Positions 26,614-57,002 of a stretch of 63,677 bases of DNA are shown piece by piece (the first letter of the stretch is position 1; the number at the start of each line of letters is the position of its first letter). Below the pieces are notes generated by a model. That model saw only the letters and a list, made by a program, of their open reading frames with translations. It was not told the DNA's origin and did no database searches. The stretch is from an uncultured Lachnospiraceae bacterium (GTDB lineage: Bacteria > Bacillota > Clostridia > Lachnospirales > Lachnospiraceae), in contig CANDAG010000022.1 of NCBI GenBank assembly GCA_947382625.1, positions 1 to 63,677 on the forward strand, read 5' to 3'. The position numbers were made by a program, and so were the translations under genes.

Positions 26614-27639
26614 ATGAAAATGAAAACAAAGATTGAACAGGAAAAGATTCCCTTACGGACTCTCAGCAGCGGAGAAAAAATTCCCTGTATGGGAATAGGA
26701 ACCTTCGGCTCAGATAAATATGGAGCTGCGGAAATTGCCGAAGCAGTTTACGGGGCAGTAAAATGTGGTTATCGGCTGATCGACTGCGCTGCAGTATATC
26801 AGAATGAAAAGGAGATCGGTCAGACGCTGAAGCAGCTTTTTACAGAAGGAGAAGTGAAGAGAGAGGAGCTGTTTATTACCTCCAAGGTATGGAATGATAT
26901 GCATGGGGAAGGGAAGGTGTCTTCCTCCTGCAGGCAGAGTCTTTCGGATCTGCAGCTGGAATATCTGGATCTGTATTTTGTGCACTGGCCTTTTCCCAAT
27001 TATCATGCGCCGGGGTGTGACGGAGATTCCAGAAATCCGGATTCAAAGCCTTTTTCCGTGGAAGAATTTATGACAACCTGGAGGCAGTGCGAGGCGCTGG
27101 TGGATCAGGGGCTGGTGCGATATATCGGTATGAGCAATATGACGATCCCCAAGCTGGAGGCGGTGCTTCCCCTTTGCAGGATCAAGCCTGCAGCGTTGGA
27201 AATGGAGCTGCATCCTTCCTTCCAGCAGCCGGAGCTTTTTGACTATGCCATATCCCATAATATCCTGCCGATCGGTTATTGCCCCATCGGCTCTCCCTCA
27301 AGACCGGAGAGAGACAGGGCAAAGGAGGACGTGGCGGATATTGAGCTCCCGGCAGTGGCAGCCGCTGCCAGGGCACATCAGGTGCATCCGGCAGTGATCT
27401 GCTTAAAGTGGGCGGTACAAAGGGGGCAGGTGCCAATCCCCTTTTCTGTAAAGGAGCAGCAGTATCTTTCCAACTTAATGTGTACTACGGAGGATCCTCT
27501 TACAGAAGAGGAGATGAAGGCCATTTGCAGGGAGGATCAAAACTGCCGGCTGATCAAAGGACAGGTGTTTTTGTGGGAAGGAGCCAGGGGCTGGGAGGAT
27601 CTCTGGGATATGGACGGCGTGATCGTGACAAAGGAATAA
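26614..27639 (+). CDS. aldo/keto reductase
   Basis: NADPH-dependent TIM-barrel oxidoreductase. The tetrad is visible: Asp in GYRLIDCAAVYQNE, Tyr five residues later, Lys in FITSKVWND, His in LYFVHWPFP. 341 residues. Two ATG codons (26614, 26620) follow AGGAAGG; the first is taken. It lies 23 bases behind the dehydrogenase gene and is co-directional, indicating one operon. Confidence 0.88.
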   Translation: MKMKTKIEQEKIPLRTLSSGEKIPCMGIGTFGSDKYGAAEIAEAVYGAVKCGYRLIDCAAVYQNEKEIGQTLKQLFTEGEVKREELFITSKVWNDMHGEGKVSSSCRQSLSDLQLEYLDLYFVHWPFPNYHAPGCDGDSRNPDSKPFSVEEFMTTWRQCEALVDQGLVRYIGMSNMTIPKLEAVLPLCRIKPAALEMELHPSFQQPELFDYAISHNILPIGYCPIGSPSRPERDRAKEDVADIELPAVAAAARAHQVHPAVICLKWAVQRGQVPIPFSVKEQQYLSNLMCTTEDPLTEEEMKAICREDQNCRLIKGQVFLWEGARGWEDLWDMDGVIVTKE

Positions 27640-27667
27640 AGAGCAGATAAAGAGGAGGGAAAAGGAA

Positions 27668-28105
27668 ATGTTGAAGGGAGTACCTAAAATTTTATCTCCG
27701 GAGCTTTTAAAGGTATTATGCGAAATGGGGCACAGTGACCGGCTGGTGATCGCAGACGGTAATTTTCCGGCAGAGACCATGGGAAAAAACGGAATCGTGA
27801 TCCGTATGGACGGACACGGGGCCTGTGAGCTTTTGGAGGCGATCCTGCAGGTTTTTCCGCTGGATACTTACGTGGAGCATCCCATGAATCTGATGCAGGT
27901 GATGCCCGGCGATACGGTGGAGACACCCATATGGGATGAGTACAAAGAAATCGTTAAGAAGGCAGATGCGCGGGGAGAGACGGTCATAGGAGAGATTGAG
28001 CGTTTTGCCTTTTATGAGGAGGCAAGGAGTGCCTACGCGATCATCGCCACAGGAGAGAGTGCCCTTTATGCCAATATCATGCTGCAAAAAGGGGTTGTGA
28101 TCTGA
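27668..28105 (+). CDS. fucU: FucU/RbsD-family sugar mutarotase
   Basis: Enzymes of this family interconvert sugar anomers, classically L-fucose. The 145-residue protein follows E. coli FucU closely at LKGVPKILSPELLKVLCEMG, at the histidine-containing GHSDRLVIADGNFP, and at the C-terminal ERFAFYEEARSAYAI and ILQKGV-like end. AGGAGGG precedes the ATG. It completes the dehydrogenase-reductase operon and suggests that a free hexose or 6-deoxyhexose is handled here. The exact sugar is not proved. Confidence 0.85.
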   Translation: MLKGVPKILSPELLKVLCEMGHSDRLVIADGNFPAETMGKNGIVIRMDGHGACELLEAILQVFPLDTYVEHPMNLMQVMPGDTVETPIWDEYKEIVKKADARGETVIGEIERFAFYEEARSAYAIIATGESALYANIMLQKGVVI

Positions 28106-28110
28106 ATTTG

Positions 28111-28150
28111 CCGTAAGGAGAGACCCATCGAAGATGGGAGGATCCCTTAC
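28111..28150 (+). other. long stem-loop behind fucU
   Basis: CCGTAAGG pairs with CCTTACG, and inside it CCCATC / GATGGG pair around GAA. A second small stem GCGCAC / GTGCGC lies at about 28158. No T-run follows; the true terminator comes at 28190. Confidence 0.6.
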
Positions 28151-28189
28151 GACCTGCGCGCACATCAGTGCGCTTCTCTATAAATAGTA

Positions 28190-28235
28190 TCGAACACCGG
28201 ATGGATTGTTTTTGGGGGAATCTGTCCGGTGTTTT
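28190..28235 (+). terminator. terminator of the fucU operon, interrupted by a mobile element
   Basis: ACACCGGA and TCCGGTGT flank a loop rich in T and G, followed by TTTT. The palindromic element 28236-28380 begins directly after this T-run, and the last eight bases, GGTGTTTT, are repeated on its far side. Confidence 0.8.
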
Positions 28236-28380
28236 GTAACTATTCAGCCTTCGGCTTCATAGTTACCCTAAATCTGCCCATTTAAAGCCGCCTTCGGCGG
28301 AGGGGCAGATTCACTCTTGGCTGAATCCATGCTTTCTCACGGACTTTGCAGCAAGTGCAAAGTCCTGGCTGAATAGTTAC
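28236..28380. mobile_element. 145-bp MITE-like palindromic element, copy A
   Basis: The termini GTAACTATTCAGCC and GGCTGAATAGTTAC are perfect 14-bp inverted repeats. GGTGTTTT is directly repeated at 28228-28235 and 28381-28388, an 8-bp target duplication. Inside are three stem-loops: the 5' 31 bases (GTAACTAT...ATAGTTAC), AATCTGCCC...GGGCAGATT with a CCGCC-TTC-GGCGG tip, and GGACTTTGCA / TGCAAAGTCC. No open frame. GTAA ends with 8-bp duplications are, from my knowledge, typical of IS66-type elements, so a transposase acting in trans is likely. Confidence 0.88.
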
Positions 28381-28427
28381 GGTGTTTTCCCATTATAAAA
28401 AAAATACTATCAATCGGCGCATTTTTT

Positions 28428-28436
28428 TGGTAAAAT
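28428..28436 (+). promoter_or_regulatory. extended -10 before the GH31 gene
   Basis: TG-G-TAAAAT, 32 bases upstream of the start codon; no good -35 box. Confidence 0.35.
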
Positions 28437-28467
28437 CAATTAAAAGCGAATGCAGGAGGGATGGAAT

Positions 28468-30774
28468 ATGAAATTTACAGAAGGATACTGGTTAAGGAGC
28501 GAACGTGCCAATTCACTTTACGCCATGCAGGCCTGTGAGGTGGAAGAGATCCCGGGTGGTATGCGGATCCTTAACGCTGTGGGGCCGGTAGATTCCCGGG
28601 GGGCAACACTTAATATGCCTACCATTACAATAGAGTTTACGGCTGCGGCAGAGAATGTGATCTTTGTGAGAGCATGGCATTATGAGGCTTATGACAAAAG
28701 GGAGCCGCGTTTTGAGATCAGAAAGCCTTCCTGTAAAAGCAGCTTTACAAGGAACGATCAGGAAGCAGTGCTGACATCAGGAGAAGTCAGCGTCCATGTG
28801 AATCTTGCAAGATGGGAATACAGCTTTTGGGCGGGGGGAAGGATGCTTACCTCCTGCGGCTTCAGAAATTTGGGGTATATCCGCTGGGATCGGAAGGGAT
28901 CAAGTATGCTTCCCACAGAAAATTATATGTGTGAGCATGAATACAGCCCTTATATGGTAAATGAGCTCTCCCTGGCTCCCGGAGAAAATGTCTACGGCTT
29001 TGGAGAGCGCTTTACAGCCTTTGTAAAAAACGGGCAGGTAGTGGATACCTGGAATGAAGACGGCGGTACCTCTTCTCAGGTCGCCTACAAGAGTATTCCT
29101 TTTTATATGACAAACAGAGGCTATGGCGTACTGGTTGACCATGCGGACAACGTTTCCTTTGAGATGGCAAGCGAAAAGGTAGAATATGCAGGCTTTAGCG
29201 TACCCGGCGAGGAGCTGCGTTATTATTTTTTCTATGGCCCGAAGCCGAAGCAGATCATAAATGAATTGACGGCCCTTACAGGAAGGCCGGCGCTGCCTCC
29301 TGCCTGGTCATTTGGCCTGTGGCTTTCTACCTCCTTTACCACCGATTATGATGAAAAGACGGTGACAGGCTTTCTGGACGGTATGCAGGAGAGAGAAATT
29401 CCTTTAAGCGTTTTTCACTTTGACTGCTTCTGGATGAAGGGATTTCACTGGTGTGATTTTGAGTGGGATGAAAGGGTGTTCCCGGATACGGAAGGGATGC
29501 TTGCCCGTTATCATGAAAGAGGGCTGAAGATCTGTGTCTGGATCAATCCTTATATTGCCCAGGGAACCGCTCTTTTTAAAGAAGCAGTGGAAAATGGCTA
29601 TCTGCTCATGCGCTCAGACAAAAAGGGCGTGCGCCAGACCGATAACTGGCAGGCCGGCATGGGACTTGTGGATTTCACCAATCAGGATGCCTGCAGCTGG
29701 TATCAGAGTAAGCTGCGGCGTCTTCTGGATATGGGAGTGGACTGCTTTAAGACCGATTTCGGTGAGAGGATTCCGGTGGATGTGATCTACCACGATGGAA
29801 GCGATCCACGGGCCATGCATAATTACTATACATTTTTATATAACCGTTGTGTATTTTCACTTCTTAAGGAGGTTAAGGGCGAGAAGGAGGCCGTGCTTTT
29901 TGCAAGGAGTGCCACCGCAGGCTGTCAGCAGTTTCCTGTACACTGGGGCGGTGACTGCAGCGCCAATTATCCTTCCATGGCAGAAACCCTGCGGGGCGGC
30001 TTATCCTTTGCCATGTCAGGGTTTGCCTTCTGGAGTCATGATATCGGGGGCTTTGAGCATACGGCGCCGGCAGATGTGTATAAGCGCTGGCTTGCCTTTG
30101 GTCTGCTCTCCTCCCACAGCAGACTCCACGGCTCCTCCAGCTATCGTGTGCCATGGGCTTTCGATGAAGAAGCCTGTGATGTGGCAAGATTCTTTGTCCG
30201 CTTAAAATGCCGTCTGATGCCTTATCTGTATGCAAAGGCAGTAGAGGCTCATGAGGAAGGGACACCTGTCCTTCGGCCTATGGTGTTTGAATATCCGGAG
30301 GATCCGGCCTGTGCTTCCCTGGATATGCAATATATGTTAGGCGAGAGCATTTTGATCGCGCCGATCTTCAATGAAGAAGGGAAGGCCTGGTATTATCTGC
30401 CGGAAGGCACCTGGGTAAATTATTTTGACGGAACCTGTCAGGAGGGCGGTCGTTTTTATCAGGGAACCTATGATTATTTTTCCCTGCCCCTTTATATCAG
30501 GGAAAATACGCTTCTTGCGCTGGGGACTATTGCAGAAAGGCCGGATTATGATTATACAGCAAACAGCGAGCTCCATTTCTATGCGCCGGCAGAAGGAGAA
30601 AAGGCGCTTTGCCGGATCCCGGATACGGAGGGAAATATTGTGGCAGAGATAGCAGTGACTCTGAAAGATAACAAACTGGAATCCCGTGTGGAAGGGGCAT
30701 CTAGGGAAGCGTTTTTGGGCCGGAAGGTGATCGTCCATGGCCGGGACGGACAAATGACAGAAATGAGTCTATAA
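28468..30774 (+). CDS. glycoside hydrolase family 31, alpha-xylosidase type (YicI-like)
   Basis: Releases alpha-linked xylose, probably from isoprimeverose-type sugars of xyloglucan. 768 residues without signal peptide, so cytoplasmic. The nucleophile Asp430 is in KTDFGERIP and the acid/base Asp496 in HWGGDCSAN; the 66-residue interval equals that of E. coli YicI (416 and 482). WSHDIGGFE follows. The start ATG 28468 lies seven bases behind AGGAGGG; the earlier in-frame ATG 28450 precedes that site. The gene follows its own promoter after the mobile element. Confidence 0.92.
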   Translation: MKFTEGYWLRSERANSLYAMQACEVEEIPGGMRILNAVGPVDSRGATLNMPTITIEFTAAAENVIFVRAWHYEAYDKREPRFEIRKPSCKSSFTRNDQEAVLTSGEVSVHVNLARWEYSFWAGGRMLTSCGFRNLGYIRWDRKGSSMLPTENYMCEHEYSPYMVNELSLAPGENVYGFGERFTAFVKNGQVVDTWNEDGGTSSQVAYKSIPFYMTNRGYGVLVDHADNVSFEMASEKVEYAGFSVPGEELRYYFFYGPKPKQIINELTALTGRPALPPAWSFGLWLSTSFTTDYDEKTVTGFLDGMQEREIPLSVFHFDCFWMKGFHWCDFEWDERVFPDTEGMLARYHERGLKICVWINPYIAQGTALFKEAVENGYLLMRSDKKGVRQTDNWQAGMGLVDFTNQDACSWYQSKLRRLLDMGVDCFKTDFGERIPVDVIYHDGSDPRAMHNYYTFLYNRCVFSLLKEVKGEKEAVLFARSATAGCQQFPVHWGGDCSANYPSMAETLRGGLSFAMSGFAFWSHDIGGFEHTAPADVYKRWLAFGLLSSHSRLHGSSSYRVPWAFDEEACDVARFFVRLKCRLMPYLYAKAVEAHEEGTPVLRPMVFEYPEDPACASLDMQYMLGESILIAPIFNEEGKAWYYLPEGTWVNYFDGTCQEGGRFYQGTYDYFSLPLYIRENTLLALGTIAERPDYDYTANSELHFYAPAEGEKALCRIPDTEGNIVAEIAVTLKDNKLESRVEGASREAFLGRKVIVHGRDGQMTEMSL

Positions 30775-39965: not shown

Positions 39966-40018
39966 AACCGGGCTTTAAGACGGATCGGTGTATCGGTCTG
40001 TTTTAAAGCCCGGTTTTG
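39966..40018 (+). terminator. terminator of the metal operon
   Basis: AACCGGGCTTTAA and TTAAAGCCCGGTT pair around a long loop that itself contains GGATCGGTG / TATCGGTC; TTTTG follows. A mobile element was inserted a few bases behind it. Confidence 0.85.
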
Positions 40019-40023
40019 TTACA

Positions 40024-40220
40024 GTAACTATTCAGCCTTCGGCTTCATAGTTACCCTAAATCTGCCCATTTAAAGTGTCTACGCTCCGCTTCGGTCCGTG
40101 CTAAACGAACGTCCACTGGACGTTCAGCACCCTTCGGCGAAGGGGCAGATTCACTCTTGGCTTAAACTACGCTTTCTCACGGACTTTGCAGCAAGTGCAA
40201 AGTCCTGGCTGAATAGTTAC
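40024..40220. mobile_element. 197-bp MITE-like palindromic element, copy B
   Basis: Same 14-bp perfect inverted ends as copy A. TTGTTACA is directly repeated at 40016-40023 and 40221-40228, an 8-bp target duplication. The sequence equals copy A at both sides, but the tip of the central stem holds about 50 extra bases, including GTGCT...AGCAC around GAACGTCC / GGACGTTC. No open frame. Confidence 0.88.
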
Positions 40221-40250
40221 TTGTTACATTCCATTGCTTCAAAAACTATC

Positions 40251-55824: not shown

Positions 55825-56949
55825 ATGGATTTACTGGAATTACGGGGGCAGATCGATGAGATCGATGCCGAAATCGCAGCATTATACGAAAAAAGAATGG
55901 ATGTATGCGCCCAGGTGGCGGAATATAAGATCGAGACAGGAAAGAAGGTCTTTGACAAGACAAGGGAGGAGGAAAAGCTCCGGAAGATCAGGGCGATGGC
56001 CCACAATGAGTTCAACAGCCAGGGGCTGTCGGAGCTTTTTGAACAGATCATATCCATGAGCCGCAAGCTTCAGTACCGGATGCTGTCGGAGAGAGGGAGT
56101 ATGGGAAACCTTCCCTTTATCGGCGTTGACGGCTTAGATGGCAGAAAGGCCAGAGTGGTGTTCCAGGGAGCGGAGGGAGCCTATTCCCAGGCGGCCATGG
56201 TTCAGTATTTCGGGGAAGAAGTGAACAGCTTCCATGTGGAAACCTTTCGGGATGCTATGGGCGCCATCGATGAGGGCAGTGCGGATTTTGCAGTGCTTCC
56301 CATTGAAAATTCCACGGCAGGGATCGTCAGCGAGATTTATGATCTTCTTGCAGAATTTGAAAATTATATTGTGGGAGAGCAGATCATTAAGATCGAACAT
56401 TGCCTGATGGGTATTCCGGGAACGGAGTTTTCAGATATCAGGACTGTCTATTCCCATCCCCAGTCTCTGATGCAGTCGGCCCGTTTTTTGAACAGCTATG
56501 ACTGGCAGCAGATCAGCATGCAGAATAATGCCTTTGCCGCCCGGAAGGTGGCGGAGGATAAGGAGCATTCTAAGGCCGCCATTGCCAGTGAATATGCGGC
56601 GAAGCTTTATGGCCTTCAGATCCTGAAAAAGGGGGTCAATGATTCCAGCACCAATTCCACCCGGTTTATTATTGTCACCAACCAGAAGATCTTTCTTAAG
56701 GATGCAAAAAAGGTCAGCATCTGCTTTGAGATTCCTCATGAGAGCGGATCCCTTTACCATATGCTGTCCCATTTTATCTATAACAATCTGAATATGAACC
56801 GGATAGAGAGCAGGCCCATTGAAGGGCGGAACTGGGAGTATCGGTTTTTTATTGATTTTGACGGGAATCTGGCGGACAGCTCCGTAAAGAATGCGCTAAG
56901 AGGTCTTCGGGAGGAAGCAAGGAACCTTCGGATACTGGGAAATTATTAA
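55825..56949 (+). CDS. pheA: bifunctional chorismate mutase/prephenate dehydratase
   Basis: Makes phenylpyruvate for phenylalanine. 374 residues: AroQ-type mutase (LRGQIDEIDAEIAALYEKRM) about 1-85, dehydratase about 105-285 (FQGAEGAYSQAA, ENSTAGIVSEIYD, NSTRFI) and a C-terminal ACT domain (IESRPIEGRNWEYRF) for feedback by phenylalanine. ATG 55825 follows GGAGGAG by six bases; an in-frame ATG at 55798 precedes that site. Mini mobile elements flank the gene on both sides, and the stop codon lies in the duplicated target of the downstream one. Confidence 0.95.
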   Translation: MDLLELRGQIDEIDAEIAALYEKRMDVCAQVAEYKIETGKKVFDKTREEEKLRKIRAMAHNEFNSQGLSELFEQIISMSRKLQYRMLSERGSMGNLPFIGVDGLDGRKARVVFQGAEGAYSQAAMVQYFGEEVNSFHVETFRDAMGAIDEGSADFAVLPIENSTAGIVSEIYDLLAEFENYIVGEQIIKIEHCLMGIPGTEFSDIRTVYSHPQSLMQSARFLNSYDWQQISMQNNAFAARKVAEDKEHSKAAIASEYAAKLYGLQILKKGVNDSSTNSTRFIIVTNQKIFLKDAKKVSICFEIPHESGSLYHMLSHFIYNNLNMNRIESRPIEGRNWEYRFFIDFDGNLADSSVKNALRGLREEARNLRILGNY

Positions 56950-56980
56950 GTAATTAAGAAGCCTTTGGCTGAATAATTAC
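56950..56980. mobile_element. 31-bp mini palindromic element directly behind pheA
   Basis: GTAATTAAGAAGCC-TTT-GGCTGAATAATTAC; the right end matches the end of the long elements at 13 of 14 bases. ATTATTAA is repeated perfectly at 56942-56949 and 56981-56988; the first copy contains the pheA TAA stop. It looks like both ends of a MITE joined after loss of the interior. Confidence 0.75.
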
Positions 56981-57002
56981 ATTATTAAGGAGACAGGGCA
57001 AA

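Follow-up and report, generated by a model that had tools for sequence, protein, structure and literature searches.

Multicopy MITE with IS66-type ends and duplication-flanked 31-bp hairpins in a Lachnospiraceae genome

A 145-bp segment behind fucU in an uncultured Lachnospiraceae bacterium (GenBank assembly GCA_947382625.1) is a MITE, being short, noncoding, bounded by inverted ends, and multicopy with duplications belonging to its own copies. It lies in a 63,677-bp stretch (contig CANDAG010000022.1, positions 1 to 63,677), called here the window. Our reading, to which we give a probability of about 0.87, is that the element belongs to a family mobilized in trans by a transposase of the ISBst12 type; with less confidence, we take the 31-bp hairpins of the family to be mainly deletion remnants. 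Here, we report the multicopy family with its distinct 8-bp duplications and an empty site, together with autonomous-looking relatives that have the same ends, 8-bp duplications, and a conserved D-D-E. Features beyond those of a first-pass annotation of this DNA are an internal copy of the end within the first hairpin (H1), compensatory changes across species in the hairpins, and a 31-bp class that includes a unit at positions 56950 to 56980.

The first-pass annotation had described 145 bp with perfect 14-bp ends and an 8-bp duplication around a noncoding, three-hairpin segment, and both the coordinates and the description hold (Table 1). The window was scanned for elements of 24 to 300 bp that have 10/10 complementary end bases and an exact 8-bp repeat on both sides; such an arrangement of duplication and inverted ends occurs at two sites in the window (28236-28380 and 40024-40220) and in 0 of 200 first-order Markov resamples of it. 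All three hairpins (H1, H2, and H3) are present, no open reading frame of at least 90 aa lies over the element, and the predicted RNA fold reaches −64.5 kcal/mol (z = −7.34). The inner arm of H1 (28253-28266) is an inverted, imperfect copy of the element end (12/14 matches). Upstream of the element and of a terminator-like hairpin is an RbsD/FucU-family gene (27668-28105), and the next gene downstream is of glycosyl hydrolase family 31. The terminator-like hairpin was not listed by a consensus terminator scan, which takes loops of 3 to 8 only. Rfam returned no match for window positions 27600 to 29000 (E up to 1), that is, no known structured RNA.

Table 1. Positions of the MITE, its parts, and related elements in the window
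Feature	Position	Strand	Remarks
MITE, noncoding	28236..28380	+	145 bp
Left target-site duplication GGTGTTTT	28228..28235		Terminator stem end plus T-run; single copy in the empty site of genome G012
Right target-site duplication GGTGTTTT	28381..28388		
Left terminal inverted repeat GTAACTATTCAGCC	28236..28249	+	Same as both ends of the 1,824-bp IS in locus L083
Right terminal inverted repeat	28367..28380	-	Exact reverse complement of GTAACTATTCAGCC
Hairpin H1, 31 nt	28236..28266	+	Left end plus inner arm, 3-nt loop, TC/CT 2x2 mismatch
Hairpin H2, AATCTGCCC / GGGCAGATT, nested hairpin inside	28271..28311	+	
Hairpin H3, GGACTTTGCA / TGCAAAGTCC	28341..28365	+	
Terminator-like hairpin behind fucU; T-run is the insertion point	28193..28233	+	Ends TTTT, loop of 11
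Second family copy, 197 bp	40024..40220	+	Middle of H2 swapped for another hairpin
Duplication TTGTTACA of the 197-bp copy	40016-40023 and 40221-40228		
31-bp mini-element, H1 only	56950..56980	-	22 bp ahead of an ATG
Duplication ATTATTAA of the 31-bp mini-element	56942-56949 and 56981-56988		

The host assembly (4.18 Mb, 113 contigs, 88% complete) contains 23 near-full-length copies on both strands, 81 to 100% identical to the window copy. Target duplications are 8/8 in 15 of these, 7/8 in 5 (one of them, at L008, scored after its BLAST match end had been lengthened by 4 bp), and lacking in 3; no two left flanks are alike. Nineteen of the 23 copies lie outside called open reading frames, with 85% of the flanking DNA called coding by the same crude caller. 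A query made of the joined flanks (the window without the element) aligned over positions 1 to 747 of 748, at 74%, to genome G012 (record CATLHM, uncultured Lachnospiraceae bacterium), which has family members at other sites. G012 was matched to that record through 200 bp flanking its copy L050, which recur without a mismatch in L172, and this puts the genus of the window in the Lachnospiraceae. The orthologous site in G012 is empty. It has the end of the FucU gene, then the terminator hairpin with its T-run uninterrupted and a single GGTGTTTT, and the downstream gene is that of the window; what is absent is the 145 bp plus one copy of the duplication. The first-pass annotation had argued that the element inserted within the T-run of the terminator behind fucU and had suggested looking for copies with other flanks and for a relative with an empty site holding a single GGTGTTTT. 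Both were found, and the insertion stands because the G012 site is empty and the 23 host copies are differently flanked.

Several neighboring arrangements were also seen. The 197-bp copy and a copy at L043 (528-723) have the same foreign hairpin within the middle hairpin, as if modules had been exchanged. At L023 (1483-1678), a 27-bp near-palindrome with a 7/8 duplication of its own encloses a full copy, as if that copy had gone into an old short unit. A lone end at L048 (2010-2023; host C23:33109-33122) apparently lies where an open frame ends, so that its TGA or TAG could act as the stop codon. Related ends (GTAACAGTTCAGCCATG...) mark a second MITE family, represented at L043 (1947-2132; 186 bp) and L247 (1055-1155; 101 bp), which are host contigs C98 and C1; both of its elements have an 8/8 duplication. 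In the window, a different dispersed repeat (about 75 to 80 bp; 28105-28183) lies in the interval from fucU to the terminator. The host genome has 18 more matches to this repeat, some of them paired 79 to 142 bp apart, and G012 has 16; it is missing from the orthologous site in G012 and has no Rfam match.

Ends that start with GTAA are typical of the IS66 family. The MITE ends start with GTAA, and from these and the 8-bp duplications the first-pass annotation had named that family. Within the genus, 48 matches to PF03050 were found in 36 genomes; 30 of the 48 were examined for ends of the element type, and 2 of these, L083 and L081, have such an end on each side. L083 (genome G023) spans 1,824 bp, with exactly GTAACTATTCAGCC at both ends and AGGAATTA duplicated on both sides. 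One 493-codon frame in it matches PF03050 (DDE_Tnp_IS66; 72.5 bits versus a cutoff of 23.1), and its seven other frames of at least 80 codons matched no Pfam family; against the NCBIfam IS66 model, the protein scores 144 bits, under the cutoff of 180. L083 has a single transposase open reading frame, with no tnpA/tnpB arrangement. L081 (genome G018) is 1,797 bp long, with ends GTAACTATTCAG and a 478-codon frame. Eight-base-pair duplications accompany the MITE, L083, and five copies in genome G021, with the exception of L081, where the duplication is unclear (5/8). A third match, L085, has one such end.

The G021 copies were read from contig ends: L083-type IS ends occur at 12 of them, and five contig pairs share an exact 8-mer beside those ends, which gives at least five IS copies, each with an 8/8 duplication. 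G021 and the genome of L083 are of the same genus, and their 14-bp ends are identical to those of the MITE. Residues D259, D310, and E436 are invariant in all four aligned IS66-type proteins, and we take them to be the D, D, and E expected of a DDE catalytic site.

In the host assembly (88% complete, 113 contigs), no intact IS with the 14-bp ends was found. Its only PF03050 match (contig C5; L049, C5:19721-20995; 58 bits) is a diverged IS66-type transposase gene, which was rejected as the partner for want of matching ends (its best pair is unconvincing, at 10/14 with a 7/8 duplication and not GTAA); the end-pair scan used on it does recover the L083 element. Since the only host match is diverged and without such ends, the partner is deduced from relatives. 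The IS66 assignment is borne out by the identical 14-bp ends and PF03050 transposase of L083, and the IS66-type transposase with matching ends that the annotation had looked toward was found in relatives and not in the host assembly.

By way of the published ends of ISDge4, the IS66 attribution can, on sequence likeness, be narrowed to the single-ORF ISBst12 group, and the MITE is probably moved in trans by a transposase of that group. According to the excerpted text of PMC12898284, ISDge4 of Deinococcus geothermalis (IS66 family, ISBst12 group) has the ends GTAACTGCTCAGCA / GTGACTACTCAGCA, GTAA at one and GTGA at the other, a 449-aa transposase, an 8-bp duplication, and observed transposition; the same excerpt calls IS66-family transposition insufficiently characterized. 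So far as that excerpt describes it, ISDge4 is like the MITE in its end (GTAACTGCTCAGCA matches GTAACTATTCAGCC at 11/14) and in the 8-bp duplication, and like the 1,824-bp relative (493 codons) in its single-ORF IS66-type transposase. Unlike ISDge4, the window element is 145 bp long with three hairpins and without a transposase frame, and its full-length relatives were found in other genomes.

In the mechanism that we propose, full-length elements with the same 14-bp ends would make an IS66-type DDE transposase (single-ORF ISBst12 group), which most likely works in trans on both MITE ends. The 145 bp would then go into new, mostly intergenic sites, with 8 bp of target duplicated. The 31-bp hairpins would mainly be remnants, formed by recombination or slippage between the right end and the inner arm of H1, with loss of the rest of the copy. 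Weighing against the proposal are the failure to find an intact partner in the host assembly, the NCBIfam score under its cutoff, the unclear duplication of L081, and the 3 host copies that lack a duplication. We infer from sequence the movement of the family, its dependence on an L083-type transposase for the 145-bp MITE, and any effects on neighboring genes.

Short units were sought in 280 sequences (1.35 Mb of loci that overlap in part, with the window among them) as GTAA...TTAC arms with a 7/8 or 8/8 duplication. Twenty were found, 17 of them exactly 31 bp, against 0 in reversed sequence; one (L166) was a contig-cut full copy and was dropped, leaving 19 (16 of 31 bp, 2 of 42 bp, and 1 of 29 bp). 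The class is mostly the left hairpin H1 alone. Eleven of the 19 had been fetched by an H1 pattern that demands the inner-arm bases, and 8 had not. A second scan with stricter ends, run over all sizes, gave 101 duplication-flanked elements (reversed control, 0): 17 of 27 to 42 bp, 83 of 101 to 197 bp (71 at 138 to 147 bp), 1 of 1,824 bp, and none of 43 to 100 bp. The duplication-flanked elements fall into two main size classes, one of about 143 bp and one of 31 bp.

Among 130 distinct flanked hairpins, 65 are full copies with a duplication of at least 7/8. A duplication this good also flanks 16 short ones; of the remainder, 16 have the right end but not the duplication, and 33 have neither. As a control, the right flank was also tried at 14 shifted positions from −12 to +12, and one match came up, at +4. 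We take this to be L063 (1501-1535) in genome G028, a 35-bp remnant made of H1 plus TGAA, with ATATACTC at 8/8 on both sides and the right end gone.

The 31-bp duplication-flanked hairpins would, at about two chances in three, be mainly deletion remnants of inserted copies. The right end repeats the inner arm of H1 in direct orientation, 114 bp from start to start, so one deletion in a full copy gives exactly a 31-bp hairpin with the duplication intact. At positions 9 and 10, the inner arm departs from the TTCAG core common to every IS end seen here, and its bases there possibly mark a deletion origin. Of the eight units that were not pattern-fetched, four have the inner-arm bases and are all 31 bp (the window unit, L274, L233, and L057), and four are without them (L034, L113, L220, and L227), as is L245 from the second scan; four of the five exact 31-bp units not fetched by pattern keep the departure from the core. 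Deletion is favored because the direct repeats are rightly placed, because L063 is a remnant, and because of these four in five. Against it stand the five units without inner-arm bases and the narrowness of the sizes (17 of 20 at exactly 31 bp, and no duplication-flanked element from 43 to 100 bp), which calls either for these particular direct repeats or for a mobile 31-bp unit. A comparison of flanks across genomes yielded no pair with 31 bp and the full element at one site, six further flank matches aside; it did recover the empty site of the window and shared full copies (L177/L192 and L183/L201).

The chief alternative is that the 31-bp H1 is itself the transposing unit, cut at both arms of its palindrome, the 143-bp family being a compound element with H1 as its base. 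We think this possible, on the doubtful side. It would account for the 19 short units with 7/8 or 8/8 duplications against none in reversed sequence and for the sharp gap in size between 43 and 100 bp, and it gains from L220 (42 bp) and L245 (31 bp), which have the TTCAG core on both arms, and from genome G009, in which the 42-bp L220 is duplication-flanked at 8/8 and the 145 bp finds no match. The exact 31-bp size, however, is explained by the direct repeats of the full element, and the inner arm in four of the five unfetched 31-bp units is unlike the core of all IS ends. Transposon ends 3 bp apart are, moreover, hard to synapse. Put in full, the proposal would be that an IS66/ISBst12 DDE transposase moves a 31-bp palindrome with 14-bp arms, leaving 8-bp duplications, and that the larger MITEs are built around it, which we regard as doubtful. 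If true, the palindrome would rank with the smallest DNA units that transpose and duplicate their target.

Covariation was assessed in an alignment (A1) of 59 full-length members from the host, the genus, and named records, from which 5 of 64 full-length copies with unusual lengths were left out. In H1 and H3 together, 97.5% of cells are paired and 67 are changed on both sides (17.9 in shuffles), and H2 likewise has double changes, in each case uncorrected for kinship of the rows. The covariation of H2 and H3 is not built in by the searches, because both lie outside every search pattern. The outer ends covary too, pairing with each other in 95.2% of cells, with 38 double-changed cells versus 22.3, and the pairs showing double change are no more numerous than in shuffles. 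At positions 6 and 7, the left end agrees with the inner arm in 49 of 59 rows and with the right end in 40 of 59. That the pairing of the outer ends is less well kept than that of H1 is suggestive only, the rows being related. The TC/CT mismatch of H1 is kept in 58 of 59 rows, being preset by the pattern for named records, and is present in all 21 rows fetched by DNA similarity. Its two positions are those at which the inner arm differs from the TTCAG core of the IS ends.

Such compensatory changes raise a second alternative, that the hairpins are retained for an RNA role (3'-end processing, stability, or termination) and that the family persists by serving host genes. The location of 19 of 23 host copies outside open reading frames, amid flanks that the crude caller counts as 85% coding, would suit it too. 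Purifying selection, however, also predicts the intergenic bias, and the shuffle control leaves sequence relatedness in. Copy sets vary between species, the G012 site is empty, and Rfam gave no match (E up to 1); we hold this reading to be improbable.

Members were found by DNA similarity in 9 of 60 genomes, including the host, all 9 of one genus; 24 genomes from other families of the same order gave no match by DNA similarity. The exact H1 pattern occurs in at least 90 stretches of named genome records, of which 80 were listed; among the matches listed, the titles are mostly Lachnospiraceae, with Roseburia, Blautia, Eubacterium, Hominisplanchenecus, Clostridia, and "uncultured bacterium" as well. 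In these pattern-fetched records, most H1 bases are fixed, including the TC/CT mismatch, and positions 6 and 7, H2, H3, and the duplications are free. The 80 loci listed hold 81 hairpins: the right end with a 7/8 or 8/8 duplication in 36, the right end with a poorer or unreadable duplication in 14, and no right end within 330 bases in 31. In a family-wide sample, the exact pattern is present in 4 of 299 genomes and 3 of 298 genera, with the host counted in both, which makes for a patchy distribution. In viral contigs the exact H1 pattern had 0 matches, so at the sensitivity of exact matching there is no hint that phages carry the element.

An element of the REP/REPIN type, mobilized by a RAYT (Y1) transposase, would likewise be small, palindromic, mostly intergenic, and multicopy. 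That reading is very improbable here, given the 8-bp target duplications at 20 of 23 host copies and ends identical to those of a DDE-type IS; we know of no such target duplication made by Y1 transposases. Chance or an assembly artefact, for which the fragmented host assembly might speak, can be dismissed, with 0 of 200 resamples and the same family in other genomes and in named records.

The MITE, which is probably trans-mobilized and of the ISBst12 type, has parallels among other small repeats. Cyanobacterial small dispersed repeats are mobile repeats of a few tens of bases. They appear alike in mobility and in that size, and are mentioned in the excerpted part of PMC3116915. That same part presents REPINs and REPs with their RAYTs, also tiny intergenic hairpins, as presumably dispersed by a transposase acting in trans, and it regards REPIN/REP singlets as what is left of doublets (PMC3116915), much as most 31-bp units here may be deletion remnants; unlike those described there, the window family has target duplications and DDE-type ends. 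In the portion of PMC3189936 consulted, MITEPsy1 is 100 nt long, with 18-nt ends, a 4-nt duplication, and observed transposition. The window MITE is like MITEPsy1, as that portion presents it, in being short, noncoding, and multicopy, with inverted ends, a target duplication, and ends shared with an IS. It differs from that description in its IS66-type ends, 8-bp duplications, and compensatory hairpin changes, and its family in having an internal end copy and 31-bp duplication-flanked derivatives.

A search of the open-access literature, extending to parts of the texts, found no MITE assigned to the IS66 family, and it found no paper holding the 14-bp end. On these sequence features, the family would be a new one of the IS66/ISBst12 kind, unusual in its three covarying hairpins, its internal end copy, and its 31-bp derivatives. 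It offers a natural set of ends, internal end copies, and minimal products for testing what a transposase requires of its ends, and its 31-bp units pose a clean question, that of deletion remnant versus minimal transposon. The family also accounts for a hairpin that recurs in some genomes of the Lachnospiraceae and that one might take for a terminator or a small RNA.
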